Shown: positions 5,600-55,384 of the stretch, piece by piece
How positions within the stretch are numbered: position 1 is the stretch's first letter
Layout: every line of letters starts with the position of its first letter
Source: Atriophallophorus winterbourni
Taxonomy: Eukaryota; Platyhelminthes; Trematoda; Plagiorchiida; Microphallidae
DNA length: 64,000 bases
Assembly (NCBI GenBank): GCA_013407085.1
Contig: JACCGJ010005287.1
Location: forward strand, 1 to 64,000
Reading direction: 5' to 3'
Notes under the pieces: model-generated
Told to the model about the DNA's origin: nothing
Database searches by the model: none
The model's input: only the letters and a program-made list of their open reading frames with translations
Made by a program: the position numbers and the translations under genes

Positions 5600-6115
5600 T
5601 TGAAATGTGTCCAATCAGGGGAACCACGAAGCCAGACAGTAGACACGGCATCTCTGTATGGCTCCCCTCAACGCCGTCTTTTCTACGTTAACGACCGGGC
5701 CACTAAAATGCGATTCCTCATCGACACTGGTGCTGAGATTAGCGTTATCCCACCATCCAATAAGGAACGCAAGAGCCCGTCGTAAATGACGTTGCAGGCG
5801 GCAAACGCCACGAAAATTTCCGCTTTCGGTCAAAGATCACTTTCTGTCAAATTAGGTCTACGACGCGACTTTCGATGGATTTTCACGATGGCTGATGTCA
5901 GAGTAGCGATTCTAGGAGCAGATTTTCTCCCACATTTTTCAGCTAAACGAAAGCTTATTTATAATTTGACAAAGATTAACTCCTTTGGTAATTCCTGCGA
6001 TTCACCTATTCAAGCCATTCGTGTACTCACCCCTGACATTCCATCTGCGTTCAGTGACTTACTGAAAGAATTTTCGGAAGTTTTCAAACCCTGTACACCA
6101 GCTACGGTCGTTTAA
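5600..6115 (+). pseudogene. Gypsy aspartic protease
   Basis: The active-site motif 'FLIDTGAEISVIP' is at about 5713-5751. The frame ends at a TAA at 5783-5785 and restarts at 5786, where the C-terminal protease signature 'VAILGADFLPHF' appears (about 5905-5940). The protease is therefore split by a stop in the flap region. It continues toward the RT in the frame 5786-6115, which ends with a TAA. Confidence 0.82.
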
Positions 6116-6136
6116 CATAACGTTAAACATTACATT

Positions 6137-7120
6137 GTGACCCGTAGTCCTCCAGTGTTTAGCAAGCCCCGTCGTTTGGCTCCAAAAATGTTCGATGTAG
6201 CGAAACGTGAGTTTGAACATATGCTCGAACTGGGAATCATCCGGCCATCCAAATCACTCTGGGCAAGCCCCCTTCACATGGTGGAGAAAAATAAATCTGA
6301 TGCTTGGCGACCATGCGGTGATTACCGTTTCCTTAACAGAGTTACTGTTCCCGATCGTTACCCCATTCCCCATATTCATCACTTTGCACGTTCATTACAC
6401 GGGAAGACAGTGCTTTCTAAACTAAATTTGATGCGTGCTTATCACCAGATACCTGTCGCCGACAAAGATATCCCTAAAACAGCTATTACCACACCCTTTG
6501 GTCTTTTCGAATTTTTAAAAATGCCCCTTGGTTTACGCAATGCTACTCAAACCATCCAGAGATTCATGGACCAGGTGTTCCTGGGATTATCTTTCGTGCA
6601 TGTCTACATTGATGACGTCCTGATCGCCAGTTCTTCTCAACAGGAACACGCAGAACATCTGCATGCTGTTTTTCAGCGACTTTCACAATTCGGCATTGTG
6701 GTTAACCTGGATAAATGCCTTTTTGCTGTCGCTTTCCGCGAAATCTTAGGACATCATGTCGATCAAAACGGAATCCGCCCTTTGCTTGATAAAATTCCGT
6801 CCATCAATGTTTATCCATGTCCCACCTCGCTTCGACAGTTACGTCGATTCGTCGGGTTAGTTAATTATTACAGAAGATTCGTTCCAAACTGTGCTAACAT
6901 CGCTCAACCGATGACTGATCTGTTACGCGGAACGGATCGACAATTTAAGATGAATGCAGATGCTGTTGAATCGTTTCAGCGATTGAAATCTGCACTGAAA
7001 GAAGCATCTACGTTATCTTACATGTCTAGGAATCACAACGCTTCGCTTTCACTCGCCACCGATGCATCACGAGCAGCAGTCGGCGCTTTCCTGCAGCAAA
7101 GTATTGACTGTGTTACTTAA
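6137..7120 (+). pseudogene. Gypsy reverse transcriptase and start of RNase H
   Basis: A 327-codon open frame covers fingers, palm and connection: '[18 protein letters not shown]', '[14 protein letters not shown]', '[16 protein letters not shown]', '[16 protein letters not shown]' and the catalytic '[12 protein letters not shown]' (about 6598-6633). It ends in the RNase H start '[16 protein letters not shown]'. The first catalytic aspartate, normally in a 'KIDLxRAYHQ' context, reads '[10 protein letters not shown]', so D is replaced by N. Even this longest frame would therefore be inactive. Confidence 0.9.
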
Positions 7121-7560
7121 CCGCATGCTTTCATTTCTCGTCGTCTACAACCCGCCGAAATCCGCTATTGTACATTTGGCCGCGAATTGTTGGCTATATA
7201 TTATGCTGTTCGTCATTTTAGACATTTCCTTGAAGGTCGCGATTTTATTGTTTGGACCGACCACAAACCTCTCACTTTTGCGTTGTCCGCCACAGCTGAT
7301 AGATATTCACCACGTGAGATACGTCACCTTAACTATATTTTTCAATTTACGAGTGACATTCCTATCTATCTGCTTCGTCGTACACAGTTGCCGATGCATT
7401 TTCTCGCATGCATCTCACAGCACTCAGTCTATCAAACTTTGATCTCACGCAGCTATCATAGGCTCAGCAACATGACAGTGACATGCATCACTACTAATCT
7501 TCGTCATCCCTCCGAGTTCAACGTATTCCCATTCGCAACTCCAGTTTGACTGTTTTGTGT
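7121..7560 (+). pseudogene. Gypsy RNase H C-terminal part
   Basis: After the stop at 7118-7120 the RNase H reading resumes in the frame at 7187-7549 with 'LLAIYYAVRHFRHFLEGR' and 'FIVWTDHKPLTFALS', the standard RNase H core of Gypsy elements. The following sequence up to 7676 is the linker and the start of the integrase zinc-binding domain ('HPGIRATRKLI' in a shifted frame). Confidence 0.8.
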
Positions 7561-7676
7561 GATATTTCCAACCAACATCGCCGTCCTCTCGTACCAAAAT
7601 TACTAAGGAAATCCATTTTTTAACATTTTCATTCTTTTTCTCATCCCGGCATTCGTGCTACTCGTAAGTTGATCAC

Positions 7677-8223
7677 TGTAACGTTTCGCACGTAAGTAAC
7701 GCGTTTTCCACCCGTTTTTTAGTTCGACAAATTCAAAACCACAATTCGGATGTTATACGGTACTGTAATTAGCAACAATTACAACAACAATAATTATACA
7801 AACCTCAACTGTATAGGAACGTACAGCAAACAGTGGAGCCGAAATACTCCAGAATCAATTATATCAAATGCAAACAAGTTCAATGACGACCAAAATTGCC
7901 GTCCAAAATGTATATCAAAGACAAGACACCCAAAAGTGGTGTCAAAATACAAGCCAATTTCAAGTGCCCAAAATGGCAACCAAATTCAACAACAATGACC
8001 GACAATTGCCTCAACAATGAATTGGAAGAAAAGCTTCACCAAATATGTGAACAGAAGATTTCTAATAATACAATTACAAAAAGCAAAGTTTAACATCTAA
8101 ATTATAAAGAAATAATTAACAAAACCAAATTCAAGTCACAAAAATCGGTATTTTATAAAAGTAGAAAGTAGAAAGGAAAAAGAAGAATTTCAAAGCTACA
8201 TAACACTTAACATGTCTCTTACA
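7677..8223. mobile_element. Solo LTR nested in the Gypsy integrase
   Basis: A 547-bp AT-rich block starts TGTAACG and ends CTCTTACA, giving the TG...CA ends and short inverted termini (TGTAA/TTACA) of an LTR. The five bases ATCAC occur immediately before (7672-7676) and after it (8224-8228), a 5-bp target duplication. The integrase reading stops exactly at the left copy and resumes at the right copy ('ITDRFAWPNM'). No gag or pol lies inside; the 82-codon frame at 7750-7998 is low complexity (Asn/Gln-rich) and is not believed to be a gene. I interpret it as a solo LTR left after recombination between two LTRs. Confidence 0.75.
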
Positions 8224-9087
8224 ATCACTGATCGATTTGCTTGGCCGAACATGCTTGCGGATAATCAAAATTGGACCAAACCCTATCTCCAATGCCAAAG
8301 CAGTAAAGTTCAACGCCATACTCTTAATGCTCAAGGATTTTTTCCTCCACCAAGCCAACGTTTTCATCACGTTCATCTCGACATTGTCGGTCCTCTGTCT
8401 ATCTCTAATGGTTTCACCCACATTTACCTTGTGTCGACCGTTTTAGCCGCTGGCCTATAGCCATTTCCATTACTGGTATTACAGCTGAGACCGTAGCGAA
8501 AACCTTTCTACAATACTGGATAAGTAATTACGGTGTTCCATCTACTATTACTACTGATCGTGGATCAAAGTTCCAATCTACCCTTTTTCGTGAGTTGACT
8601 ATACTCCTCGGCTCTAACCACATCAAAACCACAGCCTTTCATCCTTGCGCGAACGGACTTGTTGAACGGTTCCGTTGACAGCTGAAAGAAGCATTGATGT
8701 CACATGATAATACCGAAACCTGGGCAGAGAACCTGCCAGTGACCGTTTTTGGTATACGTGCTACCGTCAAAGGAGATCTTGGATGTTCTGCAGCAGAGAT
8801 AGTTTACGGCATACCACTGCGTCTCCTAGGTGAATTGATCGCATCCCCCGACGTTGCAGCTGACATTACTATTCCCCACCATGTCAATCGCTTACGCTCC
8901 TTCATGCGTCAATTACGTGCCACTCATACTCGCCCATACACCCGTAACGTTTACTTACCAAGTTATTTGCATTCATGCTATTTTGTTTTTGTTCAAACTG
9001 ATCATACGCGCAAACCCCTGCAAGCCCCAATAACCGGTCCCTCAAAAGTCGTTAGCCAATGTGACAAATACTTCGTCATCGAATGAA
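8224..9087 (+). pseudogene. Gypsy integrase
   Basis: From the right copy of ATCAC the frame reads 'ITDRFAWPNMLA', then 'YLQCQSSKVQRHTLNA', the second half of the HHCC zinc domain with one Cys changed to Tyr. Next comes the core '[15 protein letters not shown]' (first D, about 8371), '[12 protein letters not shown]' (second D, about 8550) and '[13 protein letters not shown]' (E, about 8636). A stop follows at about 8676, and the C-terminal part continues at 8694-9086. A second frameshift occurs near 8445. All three catalytic acidic residues are still present. Confidence 0.85.
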
Positions 9088-30849: not shown

Positions 30850-31033
30850 TTATCAAGTATATGACAAGTATATGTTGACCAAACCCAACCTTGCACCTGA
30901 ATACACGTGCTGACTTACCATATGTATAAAATATTTGTGTTGTTTTTATGAATTCCCTATATTTTTAATCTGTGGTTACTGTAAAGTATTTGTTTTTTGG
31001 ACCATTAAAACTTTGAATTACTTTGAATATCAA
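30850..31033 (+). mobile_element. CR1 family A 3' tail only
   Basis: It begins with the last codons of ORF2 ('YMLTKPNLAPEYTC', about 30864-30914) and continues through the family A 3' UTR to 'GACCATTAAAACTTTGAATT'. This is extreme 5' truncation, under 200 bp. Confidence 0.82.
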
Positions 31034-45338: not shown

Positions 45339-46661
45339 TTATGCCGATGCACACTGGACACGGGGATTATGTCCTTCATGCTCCCCATCTTCGTCGTACG
45401 CCTCCGAACGTCCATAGTAACCATGTTCTTGATGAGCGTCATGTTGCGGATTAAATTCATGTAGAGCCACCTCTTCGACATCCATCGGGATAGGATCTCG
45501 TCGCGATGGAGTAGGCAAAAGAGAACGCAGTTTGCCCAAAAGTTCTGGTGACAAAAAGTGATCTGGAGGGAAAGTGACTTCAAACTGAACGATTAGTAGA
45601 CCTCGTTCAAACGGATTCTTGTAATGAGGCATCCCTTCGCCTTCTATTGCTCTGAATTCACCATCTTTAAAAACTTCACCTGAGAAATAAAAATCGGAGT
45701 AAAATACGAAGTCCAAGTATAACACCATTTTTATTTGGCAGAATGTCAAATGTGCTTACCGGGTTTAGAAGTTAAGACAAGCGTGCGCTTATCTAGCGTT
45801 TCAATCGTGCGTTTAAAACCACATATGGCTTCCGATAATGTTAAATTCATTGTATACAAGAGATCATTCTGGTTCCGACGGAACCGATCGTGGCGCTGTT
45901 GATTAATAACGATTGCAATATCACCGGGTTCGATACCTGGTTCACGATCACCTTCCCCAGTCAATCTAATAGTCCGTCCATCTTCCATTCCCTTCAGAAT
46001 GTTAACTTCAACAACTTTCTTTCCCCGTACAACCTTCTCGCCATTACATGTTTTGCAACAATGCTTTGGGTCAATGATTTCCCGTCGCCCGTTACAAGAA
46101 GAGCACTTATTTTGGATTTGCTGTACATACCCAATACCAAGTTGCCGAATGACAGTTTCAATGCCGGTGCCACGACACGTACGACAAGGCTGTACCGCTC
46201 CAGCTTCTCCCCCAAGACCATCGCACTTAGGACAGAGATCATTCCGATTAATCGCCAATTTTCGGACGGCTCCATTGTATAGATCTTCCAGTTTTACAGG
46301 CAATTGGTAAACTGTATCTTTACCACGAGGTGGACCCCTGGGGCGACGACTGCCTCCAAAGAACATCTGGAAAATGTCCGACGGATCGTGGAAGGTGTCT
46401 GGTCCACTGCCCTCTTTAATGGCTTCTTCACCGCCCGCATCATAAATACGTCGCTTTTTCGGGTCGCTCAAAACTTCGAAAGCACGCGAAATCTCTTTGA
46501 ACTGGAAATAGAAGATATTACATAGTTACCTTTTCGCCATCACTCCCGCTTTTGTCCGGATGATGCTGCAAAGCCATTTTCTTATATGCCTTTTTAATTT
46601 CTTCTTGAGTTGCATTAGGAGAAATCCCGAGGATATCGTAATACTTTGATTCTACGACCAT
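45339..46661 (-). CDS. DNAJA: DnaJ homolog subfamily A (type I Hsp40 co-chaperone), 404 aa
   Basis: The coding sequence joins 46661-46530, 46501-45760 and 45679-45339. Both introns (28 nt and 80 nt) have GT-AG ends, and the join gives 404 residues, close to the roughly 400 of human DNAJA1/2/4. The J domain (about 5-67) has HPD at 34-36. A short Gly/Phe-type region (about 87-104) follows. Next come four CxxCxGxG-type zinc motifs at C134/C137, C150/C153, C177/C180 and C193/C196. The client-binding domains end with '[14 protein letters not shown]'. The C-terminus is CASA, a CaaX box for prenylation as in DNAJA1/A2. It would stimulate Hsp70 ATPase and deliver unfolded clients in the cytosol. The start was chosen because '[12 protein letters not shown]' is the usual type I beginning. 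Which of A1, A2 or A4 it corresponds to is not resolved. Confidence 0.96.
45680..45759 (-). other. 80-nt intron 2 of the DNAJ gene
   Basis: It starts GTAAGCACA and ends TTATTTCTCAG, splitting the Gly codon before 'EVFKDGEF' (phase 1). Confidence 0.93.
46502..46529 (-). other. 28-nt intron 1 of the DNAJ gene
   Basis: It starts GTAACTATG and ends ATTTCCAG, with phase 0 between Lys44 and Phe45. It contains an in-frame TAA and 28 is not a multiple of three, so it must be removed. Confidence 0.9.
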
Positions 46662-52340: not shown

Positions 52341-52599
52341 GCAATGTCGAGCAATGAGAATGAAAAATAACTGCATAAGCTTAGCGCCATGCCTCGTTGG
52401 TAAAATCACATAAACTGTAGATTTTTAGAGGCTGAAAATCGACAGCGAGCACTGATAATAACGGATTAACTAGCATAGATGGGAGTTTTACAAAATTCTG
52501 TTGAAAACAAAAAATTCACTTACCAGAAGCAAATCAACCGCCAAGTGAACAGCCAGAAAGTTCCAACATGATTTGCCTATTAAAACATTTGTGACAATT
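52341..52599. other. No recognised gene
   Basis: Flank between the CR1 fragment and the LTR element. Confidence 0.4.
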
Positions 52600-52774
52600 T
52601 GTGATGATTGTTTGAATAGCAACCAATACTAATCGATAATTTTTGTAATCAAAATTCTCGTTGTTAGTTACGTTAATTGATACAAGCTATGTGATTCAAG
52701 TAACTGTGGTTAATTCTCACTTCTATTCCTGTGTTGGTTATTTCGCTCAATTCAATACAATTCAATTCATTACA
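52600..52774 (+). repeat. 5' LTR of the BRC-carrying element
   Basis: 175 bp, from TGTGATGATTG to ATTCATTACA; followed after two bases by TGGCGTCGCGATC, a plausible tRNA primer site. Confidence 0.9.
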
Positions 52775-52793: not shown

Positions 52794-53068
52794 ATGTCGT
52801 TCGGACCTCTCAATGTTCATGGAACCCCAGAGAAATTGAAGATTACCTGAAACGTTTTGAACTTTGGTGTCTCACCTCGGGTGAAATGCCTGATTCAATT
52901 TTCACTGCGCATTTTCTTACTTCAGCAGAAGAAGATGTTTATGATTTGCTAAAACATTTATCATTTCCTATCCTACCTGCTAAGAAGACTTTCGATGAAT
53001 TGAAATCAGTTCTATTAGGGCATGTCACTACGAAAAATTTCGAAATTGCTGAACGTGCACGCTTGTGA
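52794..53068 (+). pseudogene. Gag N-terminal part of the BRC-carrying element
   Basis: ATG at 52794 gives 'MSFGPLNVHGTP', the common start of Gypsy gag proteins in flukes. A one-base shift near 52830 moves the frame, which then reads 'DYLKRFELWCLTSGEMPD', 'AHFLTSAEEDVYDLLKHL' and 'TTKNFEIAERAR' until a CR1 insertion ends it at 53066-53068. Confidence 0.8.
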
Positions 53069-53350
53069 ACTCACCAAACCAGCAAACTTTCAAGAGAAGC
53101 CTTGATGCCTATTTGACCCTAAACCCATGCATTGAAGAAAACTATACATCTTAACACCATACACCTACATTTGTTATCCCACCAATCGAAAACAATTTCT
53201 GCCCTTGGATATTTACTTGATTTTTGAACTGCCCAGTAAGCAATCTAATCCCATTTTTGCTTGTTATATTATTCGTTGTTGTCATATTATTCTGTGGTTT
53301 TTTGTAAAGCTATATGATTTTTAGACCATTAAAATTGAATTGAATTGAAT
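53066..53350 (+). mobile_element. CR1 3' end inserted in gag
   Basis: The last codons of a CR1 ORF2 ('LDAYLTLNPCIEENYTS') and its 3' UTR ('CTGTGGTTTTTTGTAAAG', 'TTAGACCATTAAAATTGAAT') end in a repeated TTGAA unit. The gag frame is interrupted at CGCTT and resumes directly after the tail at 53347. Confidence 0.82.
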
Positions 53351-53358
53351 TCAATACA

Positions 53359-53845
53359 ATGCGAAGACAAGAAAACCAGTCTATTCGTCAATTTATTTTG
53401 GAATTGCAAATACAGGGTACAGGTTGTGCATTCGAAGATAAACTATATGATCATTTAAGAGATCGTTTAATTGCTGGTAATAATGAACCCGATTTATATC
53501 ACCAGTTATTGATGTTGAATAATCCAACTTATGAAAATGTCAAGAGAATATGCGATCAATATGAAGATGTTTCAAAAGAAATTAATCATCAAATTAATGC
53601 TGACACTCAAACCGACCATAGCGACAAAGTGATTCTGATGTCAAACCAGACAGAGTAAGCGAATTCGGCAAAAGAAAGTCTAATTTTGACAATCAGAAGT
53701 TTGGAAAATCTGCATCTTGCGGCAAGTTACATTCTCGATTTACTTGTCCATTTCGTAATGCTAAATGTTTTAAGTGTGGTAAACTTGGACATATTCAGTC
53801 AGTTTGTCGAAATTCTAAGACATGTTATGTGCATAGTAATGGTAC
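53359..53845 (+). pseudogene. Gag C-terminal part and zinc knuckles of the BRC-carrying element
   Basis: 53359-53658 reads 'QENQSIRQFILELQIQG' and 'LYDHLRDRLIAGNNEPD', the conserved gag region of Gypsy elements in flukes. After a stop at 53656-53658 another frame has 'CGKLHSRFTC' and a full CCHC knuckle 'CFKCGKLGHIQSVC' (about 53768-53809). It would bind element RNA. Confidence 0.85.
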
Positions 53846-54245
53846 AAAAGTCATCAATGTTGAAAATCAAATCAGCTCACTATCTTTATCAGTGTCACCA
53901 TCCATAGTGTCTCATACTCGTAAACGTATATTCAGTAGTTATGGTTCCAAAGAATTTATACTTGATACAGGAAGTGTGGAATCATTGATTTCATTGAATG
54001 ATTTGAAACATTTTGCCCCTGATGCTCAAATTCATCAATCTGACATTTCGATTCACGGCGTTACAGGACATTCTGTACCTGTTGTCGGAGTTTGCTCTAT
54101 TCCAATCAGATACGGTACTGCAAAACCAGTTGAGTGTTCATTCATTTTTACGAAATCTGGTCTACCTATTCTTGGCTTACAATCGCTGAAGTTACTCAAT
54201 ATTGACTTTTCCTTTTTTGTCTACAAGTTCATTAACAAAAAATGA
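53829..54245 (+). CDS. Retroviral-type aspartic protease of the BRC-carrying element
   Basis: The 138-codon frame has the catalytic motif 'FILDTGSVESLISL' (about 53956-53997) and the later 'FIFTKSGLPILGLQSLKLL', corresponding to the ILG block near the end of the protease. It starts directly after the zinc knuckle in the same frame. A frameshift in the T-rich stretch near 54215 leads to the stop at 54243-54245; the pol reading continues in the other frames. The domain itself is unbroken and has its catalytic Asp. Confidence 0.82.
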   Translation: MHSNGTKVINVENQISSLSLSVSPSIVSHTRKRIFSSYGSKEFILDTGSVESLISLNDLKHFAPDAQIHQSDISIHGVTGHSVPVVGVCSIPIRYGTAKPVECSFIFTKSGLPILGLQSLKLLNIDFSFFVYKFINKK

Positions 54246-54268: not shown

Positions 54269-55081
54269 CTCGTCAGTGTGCATTCCGGTGGCATGAACAT
54301 AAAACCTGTTCATTCAGAAATAACTGGTCATCATATATTTTTGAAACGTCGCCTGATTACACATGGTCTAGGAGAACCTGTCGGAAAAGCCAAGGCTCTA
54401 TTGCATACAAACGATGATGATACCTTAACTATGCCGCCTAGCGAAAAACGAAACGATGACTTTCATACATCCTATCATAGTATGGACAACGCTCCAGTTA
54501 CTCTGGATATTCAAACTGCATCTGGAAAGACAGTTCGACCGATTTCTAACAGTGCCATTGGTCGTACTAAAGCTCTTTTGTTTGATGATGAAAATTTGAC
54601 TTCCGTATCAACTAACTCAAGCGCTACTCCTGTCAACACGTCCACATCCGCCCGTATCATTGATTCAAACGGAAAATCCAGTTTCCATTACCAAGAAAAA
54701 GGCTTCAAAGTTAGCAAACTCCAGCATTCATCAGATACCATTTCAAATAAATCACCAAACTCATCTTATCAAGCGAATTCAGCACTGCCTTCTAGCTCAT
54801 CTAAACGATCATCAGATAATGTACTTTTTAAAACCGCAAGAGGAAAAGCGTTAATCGTACCTTCGACTACTGCTATTGATAAAGCGAGAGAATTGTTGGC
54901 AACTGTGGATGACGTTTTGGGTTCGCTGGGACCTCCGTGTGTTCAATCAATTCAACCTGCAGACACTGGACAAGCTTCTGATGAAAAAGCAACAAACTTG
55001 TCACATAATTTGTCTTCTGAGAATACTGAATTATGTGAACCTGTCAGAGAATCGGAAAGACTGACGAACAAACCTATTTAA
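54269..55081 (+). CDS. RT stub fused in frame to BRCA2-like BRC repeats
   Basis: The frame is open from 54269 to the TAA at 55079-55081; the first ATG is at 54293. The first part, 'NIKPVHSEITGHHIFLKRR' to 'GLGEPV' (54296-54382), is the N-terminal edge of a Gypsy RT. From 54383 the text is unlike pol. 'GKAKALLHTNDDD' resembles the end of a BRC repeat. Then comes a nearly complete BRC repeat, 'IQTASGKTVRPISNSAIG' (from 54509) followed by 'RTKALLFDDEN' (to 54595). Another is 'FKTARGKALIVPSTTAID' (from 54827) followed by 'KARELLA' (to 54901). Both keep the TAxGK core; the second keeps the FxxA motif and the first the LFDE-like motif (LFDD) that BRC repeats use to bind RAD51. Spacers are Ser/Thr-rich. 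BRC repeats otherwise belong to BRCA2. I infer capture of a host BRCA2-like fragment. Expression is unknown. Confidence 0.82.
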   Translation, partial: LVSVHSGGMNIKPVHSEITGHHIFLKRRLITHGLGEPVGKAKALLHTNDDDTLTMPPSEKRNDDFHTSYHSMDNAPVTLDIQTASGKTVRPISNSAIGRTKALLFDDENLTSVSTNSSATPVNTSTSARIIDSNGKSSFHYQEKGFKVSKLQHSSDTISNKSPNSSYQANSALPSSSSKRSSDNVLFKTARGKALIVPSTTAIDKARELLATVDDVLGSLGPPCVQSIQPADTGQASDEKATNLSHNLSSENTELCEPVRESERLTNKPI

Positions 55082-55120
55082 GATTACGAAAATCCGAGGA
55101 CGATTAGGAGCTGCAGTGGT

Positions 55121-55295
55121 TGTAATGATTGTTTTGAACAGCAATCGATACTAATCGATAATTCTGTAATTCAAATTCTCGTTGTTAGTTACGTTAATTA
55201 ATACAAGCTGTGTGATTCAAGTAACTGTGGTTAATTCTCAGTTCTATTCCTTGGTTGGTTATTTCGCTCAATTCAATACAATTCAATTCATTACA
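55121..55295 (+). repeat. 3' LTR of the BRC-carrying element
   Basis: 175 bp, TGTAATGATTG to ATTCATTACA; partner of 52600-52774. The preceding stretch 'CCGAGGACGATTAGGAG' is purine-rich. Confidence 0.9.
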
Positions 55296-55384
55296 CTATT
55301 TTAATGTATTTTGATCTTCCTCAAACGTAAGTGTGTAAATCAGTTAATCACCATAACTTTTATAAAATAGACGGCAACAATCAA

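Follow-up and report, generated by a model that had tools for sequence, protein, structure and literature searches.

The first 64,000 nucleotides of Atriophallophorus winterbourni contig JACCGJ010005287.1 (the window) contain a segment coding for BRC repeats that lies between two long terminal repeats (LTRs). BRC repeats are the RAD51-binding units of BRCA2, and the locus raises the question of how such repeats came to lie within a mobile element and whether the element makes use of them. An initial annotation had proposed either the capture of a host gene fragment or an element that exploits the host recombination machinery.

The ORF at 54269-55081 (+) was found to score 21.8 bits (E = 1.3e-4) against the Pfam BRCA2 repeat profile (PF00634), whose curated cut-off of 20.3 it thereby passes. 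Scored singly, each of the two repeats falls below the cut-off (Table 1), with both jointly exceeding it. The real frame is open over 54385-55030, and none of 20,000 mononucleotide shuffles was open over the same stretch. A chance BRC match is ruled out by these scores and shuffles together with the donor exon described below, and the BRC-repeat segment between the two LTRs is real. The two repeats of the initial annotation were thus upheld, as was the end of a third, an entire repeat being present at that point in the host exon. With the BRC ORF as query, the protein database returned nothing at E <= 1. In the PDB, neither this ORF nor either repeat gave a BRC match, the single match being an unrelated one (E 1.2).

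The features of the element are collected in Table 1. As had been described, the two LTRs match each other, and reverse transcriptase (RT), RNase H and integrase are absent from the element, there being no room for them and none being identified in its ORFs by Pfam. The Pfam matches for zf-CCHC (19.4 bits, cut-off 20.8) and RVP (13.5 bits, cut-off 20.7) are both below cut-off, as is that of Retrotrans_gag in the gag of another copy, L046 (17.8 bits, cut-off 24.1). Both extremities of the ORF, outside approximately 54385-55027, are pol sequence of the element and not captured sequence. The stretch ahead of the 3' LTR (55031-55120) matches at 66% a related pol tail with LTR at 14839-14581 (-); this second place is a degenerate relative at which no remaining element parts were recognised. 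Tails resembling the end of the insertion within gag are present in the window at 31406-31202, 30965-31033 and 26419-26357.

Table 1. Features of the BRC-carrying element, with positions given in the window
Feature	Position	Strand	Remarks
5' flank CAATT	52595-52599	.	possible target-site duplication; 4/5 bases shared with CTATT at 55296-55300
5' LTR (TGTGAT...ATTACA)	52600-52774	+	162/176 alignment columns identical to 3' LTR
TGGCGTCGCGATC	3' of 5' LTR		candidate primer-binding-site position
Gag, first part	52794-53064	+	ATG at 52794; 88-93% to gag of other mapped copies
Insertion within gag	53065-53355	.	missing between gag pieces of other mapped class A copies; probably a LINE 3' end
Gag, second part	53356-53660	+	by alignment with other copies
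Zinc knuckle and aspartyl protease region	53661-54245	+	zf-CCHC and RVP matches; homology to fluke Gag-PR proteins
pol stretch before RT (...GLGEPVGKA)	54269-54384	+	homology of relatives into RT stops at BRC start
5' junction AAAAGCC	54385-54391	+	common to donor exon and element
Putatively captured BRCA2-like fragment	54385-55027	+	86% identity to host exon L044:4221-4876; 3' end +/- few bases
End of third BRC repeat	~54386-54415		complete in host exon at same place: FSTAKGDSIHLSSVSLQKAMALMETND
BRC repeat 1	54497-54595	+	VTLDIQTASGKTVRPISNSAIGRTKALLFDDEN; IQTA where host has FQTA; 7.9 bits
BRC repeat 2	54818-54913	+	NVLFKTARGKALIVPSTTAIDKARELLATVDD; FKTA kept, host LF changed to LL; 15.3 bits
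pol C-terminus remnant and pre-LTR stretch (...EPVRESERLTNKPI)	55031-55120	+	kept in other class A copies
3' LTR (TGTAAT...ATTACA)	55121-55295	+	paired with 5' LTR
3' flank CTATT	55296-55300	.	4/5 bases shared with 5' flank CAATT

A search with the Gag-protease (Gag-PR) part identified 22 homologues with E values as low as 5e-124, among which are several Gag-PR-RT proteins; the 16 that carry organism names all belong to flukes (Dicrocoelium, Schistosoma, Echinostoma and Clonorchis). The BRC part starts at ORF residue 509. Eight of the 22 alignments, the two best included, stop at residues 509-510, and three continue beyond the start of BRC, reaching residues 527, 531 and 584. The remaining relatives, many of which are fragments, end before residue 509. 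Four relatives that were scanned continue into RT (RVT_1, 77.7-101.5 bits). Judged by these alignments, the BRC part begins where fluke relatives run on into RT. Searching the genome with the Gag-PR-preRT part of L046 revealed places with frames of 919-1289 aa, against a maximum of 816 aa in the BRC matches listed. A Dicrocoelium Gag-PR-RT protein aligned through RT without a stop at six places (C14348, C424, C2066, C11667, C11536 and C11213), and the Gag-PR of these six sister copies is 91-97% identical to that of L046. As BRC takes the RT start position here and RT is present in sister copies, the element was categorized as a non-autonomous Ty3/gypsy derivative.

A protein search of the genome of A. 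winterbourni (537 Mb, 15,840 contigs; counts are lower bounds) gave at least 152 matches, with at least 142 places scored among 1269 candidates; one of the 142 is the host exon, and equal scores in some pairs suggest duplicate haplotype contigs. A single odd copy is ruled out by a family of this size, and the BRC-carrying family is present at well over 100 places in the assembly. Profile searches with PF00634 and PF09103 (the latter for the OB domain) gave no match in this genome, nor in control genomes, and so carry no information; copies known from the protein search escaped the one with PF00634.

Fifty loci, a few of them overlapping, were retrieved, their parts were mapped by blastn, and layouts were obtained from 29. 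The class A layout is LTR-Gag-zf/PR-preRT-BRC-pol tail-LTR, with a single 761-aa frame in L046, for example. Class B is shorter, with BRC up to position 613, and class C carries BRC up to position 555; the LTRs of both are approximately 75% like that of the window. The 3' ends of the captured piece are nested, C inside B inside A, and the class B end falls at AACAAAC, a motif that recurs further on in class A, which fits a deletion between short repeats. In several class B and C copies Gag was found to be joined directly to BRC in frame, with loss of the protease. This join would be a secondary deletion, since L040, L045 and L050 retain other sequence after Gag, followed by the pre-RT piece and then BRC. 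In two class A copies (L042, L048) the BRC insert was observed to have lost its first ~100 bases, with both full repeats kept.

An exact 5-bp target-site duplication was found in 15 of the 28 testable copies with TG...CA edges (L009 and L039, which have none, are among the 28), compared to 6 of 756 mismatched flank pairs. Of 40 LTR rows, 13 had been excluded as locus duplicates, tandem arrays, one non-LTR pair or loci ending inside an LTR. Identity between the two LTRs reaches at least 97% in 15 of 23 class A pairs, so that many insertions are younger than the window copy. With RT missing from the BRC copies and LTR pairs this young, mobilisation in trans by the sister copies appears likely.

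Sequence comparison strongly supports the host's own BRCA2-like exon (L044, contig C1431) as donor of the captured piece. The exon is open over 538 aa and codes for three BRC repeats (PF00634, 48.5 bits, E 5.6e-13). For its 5' flank a single place in the genome was found, and the 8.9 kb read around it showed no match to the LTR or gag of the window copy. The label 'BRCA2-like' refers solely to the BRC repeats, exon 2 of the host gene giving no Pfam match above cut-off, and a protein database search with the host exon gave none at E <= 0.1. A match to the BRC profile and a resemblance to a gene of the host, the absence of which would have told against the initial annotation, were thus found; the copy in the window is not unique but belongs to a large family.

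The explanation considered to be probable is that a host BRCA2-like mRNA was captured by a Ty3/gypsy element, replacing RT-RNase H-integrase, and was then amplified in trans as near-neutral cargo. A Ty3/gypsy-type LTR retrotransposon would have taken up at least ~1.07 kb of spliced BRCA2-like host mRNA, the joining step presumably being template switching at the seven-base match AAAAGCC, as proposed for retroviral oncogenes, with the captured piece replacing the RT-RNase H-integrase part. Three long copies and the common subfamilies would trace to this one capture. Full-length sisters would then have copied the Gag-protease-BRC product in trans, spreading it over well more than 100 places, its BRC part carried as near-neutral cargo with no function. 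Subfamilies would have arisen via deletions inside the captured piece, some of which also removed the protease and so created the direct Gag-BRC frame.

Selection was investigated by parsimony on trees of the copies, with amino-acid changes compared to the expectation from synonymous changes. Copies were picked by best score, and duplicates and rows with less than 80% (BRC) or 90% (Gag and zinc knuckle-protease, zf-PR) coverage were dropped, leaving 51 of 64 rows for BRC (the host plus 50 element rows), 21 of 64 for Gag and 31 of 46 for zf-PR. On internal branches the ratio to neutral was 0.21 for Gag (95% codon bootstrap 0.09-0.44) and 0.33 for zf-PR (0.16-0.59), against 0.99 for BRC (0.68-1.53; 50 element rows). 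Over all branches these values were 0.54, 0.56 and 0.99 (0.75-1.29 for BRC), respectively. Codon models gave omega of 0.32 for Gag, 0.27 for zf-PR and 0.79 for BRC (class A 0.99, classes B/C 0.66, with both L043 rows, although of class A layout, grouped with B/C here and in the stop counts below); the BRC values of 0.79 and 0.66 lie below 1 and count against pure cargo. Gag and protease are shown to be constrained, whereas the BRC amino acids are without clear constraint.

This contrast is weaker in matched sets of copies. The 19 BRC rows from copies that also gave Gag rows had an internal ratio of 0.72 (0.41-1.32). Among the 20 copies with all three parts, placed on one tree, the ratios over all branches were 1.21 for BRC, 0.50 for Gag and 0.60 for zf-PR, and 4 of 5000 bootstraps had BRC no higher than Gag+PR; on internal branches they were 0.85 (0.47-2.02), 0.18 and 0.60, and 182 of 5000 had BRC no higher. 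In BRC, 16 stop codons were counted in the 50 element rows, where neutrality predicts 26.8, and 4 in class A, where it predicts 12.4. Maintenance of an open frame, which would speak against pure cargo, is therefore possible, though the copies were chosen by protein score; in classes B/C there were 10 against 13.1, with no clear deficit. Protein change near the neutral rate indicates that the BRC piece is likely to be cargo and not a working RAD51-binding tool, and selection on the captured coding sequence is not required for the capture itself.

Use of RAD51 by the element was weighed against this. A Gag-BRC protein could bind host RAD51 via repeat 2 and use it to protect cDNA, to repair integration sites or to recombine cDNA into the genome, which is considered unlikely; the probability is judged to be similarly low that a Gag-BRC fusion takes RAD51 into the particle, loads it on the cDNA or sequesters it, via this same repeat. 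Were it true, a mobile element would have made a BRCA2 piece into a tool that steers break repair to its own benefit. The FxxA motif, which contacts the RAD51 pocket, is intact in repeat 2 in 48 of 50 element rows (Phe kept in 50, Ala in 48), and the F of LFDDE in repeat 1 is kept in all 47 rows with a residue there. The class A stops below the neutral number, as well as an omega slightly lower in the repeats (0.77) than in the linkers (0.86), also speak for this use. Against it, the BRC amino acids change at approximately the neutral rate, and by parsimony the repeats are no slower than the linkers (1.12 and 0.92 on all branches, 0.96 and 0.97 on internal ones). Presumed RAD51-contact sites make up 18 of the 65 codons, took 26 of the 133 changes and are not significantly slower (permutation 0.09). 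Moreover, one canonical aromatic is lost per repeat in 50 of 50 element rows: the FxxA Phe of repeat 1, which is F in the host, is replaced by I in 48 and N in two, and the F of the host LF in repeat 2 has become L in all 50. A precedent in yeasts, where Rad51 and Rad52 affect transposition of Tf1 and Ty1 (PMC5741268), speaks for such use. From the comparison of copies, RAD51 binding by the BRC part of the element is not favoured, and the proposal that the element exploits RAD51 is not supported, BRC changing at approximately the neutral rate next to a constrained Gag and protease.

The captured stretch could also have been kept for a reason independent of its amino acids, as a packaging spacer, an open C-terminal extension or a source of small RNAs matching host BRCA2. 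This is given a low probability as well. The class A stop deficit with amino acids free to change would suit such a role, as would the persistence of BRC in class B and C copies that have no protease. In classes B and C, however, stops show no clear deficit, and the piece is shortened at its 3' end, which indicates that a fixed length of the captured piece is not maintained. Carriage as near-neutral cargo is retained as the preferred reading.

At the 5' junction, the same seven bases occur in the host (...CGCTGCA/AAAAGCC...) and in the element (...CCTGTCGG/AAAAGCC...). All 11 element copies examined begin at AAAAGCC, in the middle of the first host repeat, some with one base changed; upstream of the junction is the EPVG stretch of the element in seven and Gag in four. 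Loss of the first 25 to 100 bases of the insert was noted in L039, L042 and L048. Separate captures for each subfamily were rejected on the basis of the common 5' junction and shared derived residues.

A route through DNA, in which genomic BRCA2 sequence was joined to the element through ectopic repair, would be compatible with the common subfamilies, which hold the first 550-650 bases of the longer insert, a single exon, and so are by themselves silent on RNA versus DNA. Host DNA spanning the exon end (L044:4700-6900) was searched against the genome, and five places besides the host matched up to query 551. At two of them (C14769, C1326) there was no match past query 551, the exon end; at C15326, C9047 and C6011 the match resumed directly at query 1461-1501 (to 1499 in C6011). 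The stretch absent from these three is L044:5250-6162, a GT-AG intron of 913 bases (GTAAGT...TTTTAG), across the splice of which the host frame is open. Among the matches listed, the pre-RT stretch of the element was seen at the long copies C14769 and C6011, the other three not being among them. As three copies are without the host intron, precisely, capture most likely took place from spliced mRNA; the longer insert, of ~1.07 kb if starting at the common 5' junction, is most likely derived from such a message. With both host exons fused exactly in these copies, insertion at the DNA level is already refuted, unless the three intron-less copies represent a separate event, and is regarded as very improbable. 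The reverse direction, in which the host gene acquired its BRC repeats from the element, has nothing beyond the similarity in its favour and is almost entirely discounted, given a host exon with three full repeats and a single-place 5' flank, and elements that begin mid first repeat, three of them without the intron.

Capture of a host gene fragment by the element is thus strongly supported by the donor exon, the microhomology junction and the intron missing in three copies; it was neither a lone nor a very recent event, having founded a multicopy family with subfamilies. Retroviruses are known to transduce oncogenes, a capture of host mRNAs by LTR elements. In crocodilians, endogenous retroviruses (ERVs) captured the mRNA of KIT-ligand and nectin3 (PMC4299795). 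These cases are alike in that a host message was joined into an LTR element and later multiplied as copies; they differ in that the present one would pair a Ty3/gypsy element with a BRCA2-like fragment. The crocodilian KIT-ligand capture reportedly lost no ERV domain (PMC4299795), whereas the present element lost everything from RT on. Template switching as a route of capture has been reviewed for plants (PMC13317346).

The family can also be set beside elements that have lost pol. The TR-GAG elements of plants retain LTRs and gag, with pol absent, and are most likely moved in trans. Gag-only non-autonomous LTR elements are described from plants (PMC8704663, PMC6022998). The present copies are similar in having LTRs and gag with pol gone and movement in trans most likely, but are from an animal and hold, in frame with Gag-protease, a piece that can be recognised as host protein. 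In bdelloid rotifers, LTR retrotransposons bear extra ORFs (PMC5408684), and so are likewise invertebrate elements with an added ORF; here pol was replaced, and the putative donor gene was identified in the same genome. Compared to BRCA2 itself, the two full repeats and partial third, jointly above the PF00634 cut-off, lie inside a mobile element and have partly lost the canonical aromatics. Among titles and abstract beginnings of the open-licence literature, no report was apparent that places BRC repeats within a mobile element.

The family provides a clear example, in an animal, of an LTR retrotransposon outside the retroviruses which most likely acquired and spread a host mRNA; a single genome shows the donor, the breakpoint, the loss of the intron, the sister copies and the deletions that followed. 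Since the cargo is a RAD51-binding module in BRCA2, the functional question is directly testable. For annotation, BRCA2-like matches in genomes of this kind may be transposon copies.

Several further observations were made at these loci. Tandem LTR-BRC-LTR-BRC arrays with a period near 1.76 kb were identified in L032 (C9917:1-10000), L033 and L034 (C11725), with five BRC copies inside 10 kb on C9917 and one gap larger; arrays of this form match the expectation of unequal exchange between LTRs. A second, different Gypsy family, with pieces of RT, RNase H and integrase, is apparent at 5786-9086 (+) of the window and at L042:620-3037, its RT in L042 being 90% identical and lying just upstream of the BRC element. 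Elsewhere in the window, exons at 45746-46525 (-) read by eye like a DnaJ (Hsp40) gene.
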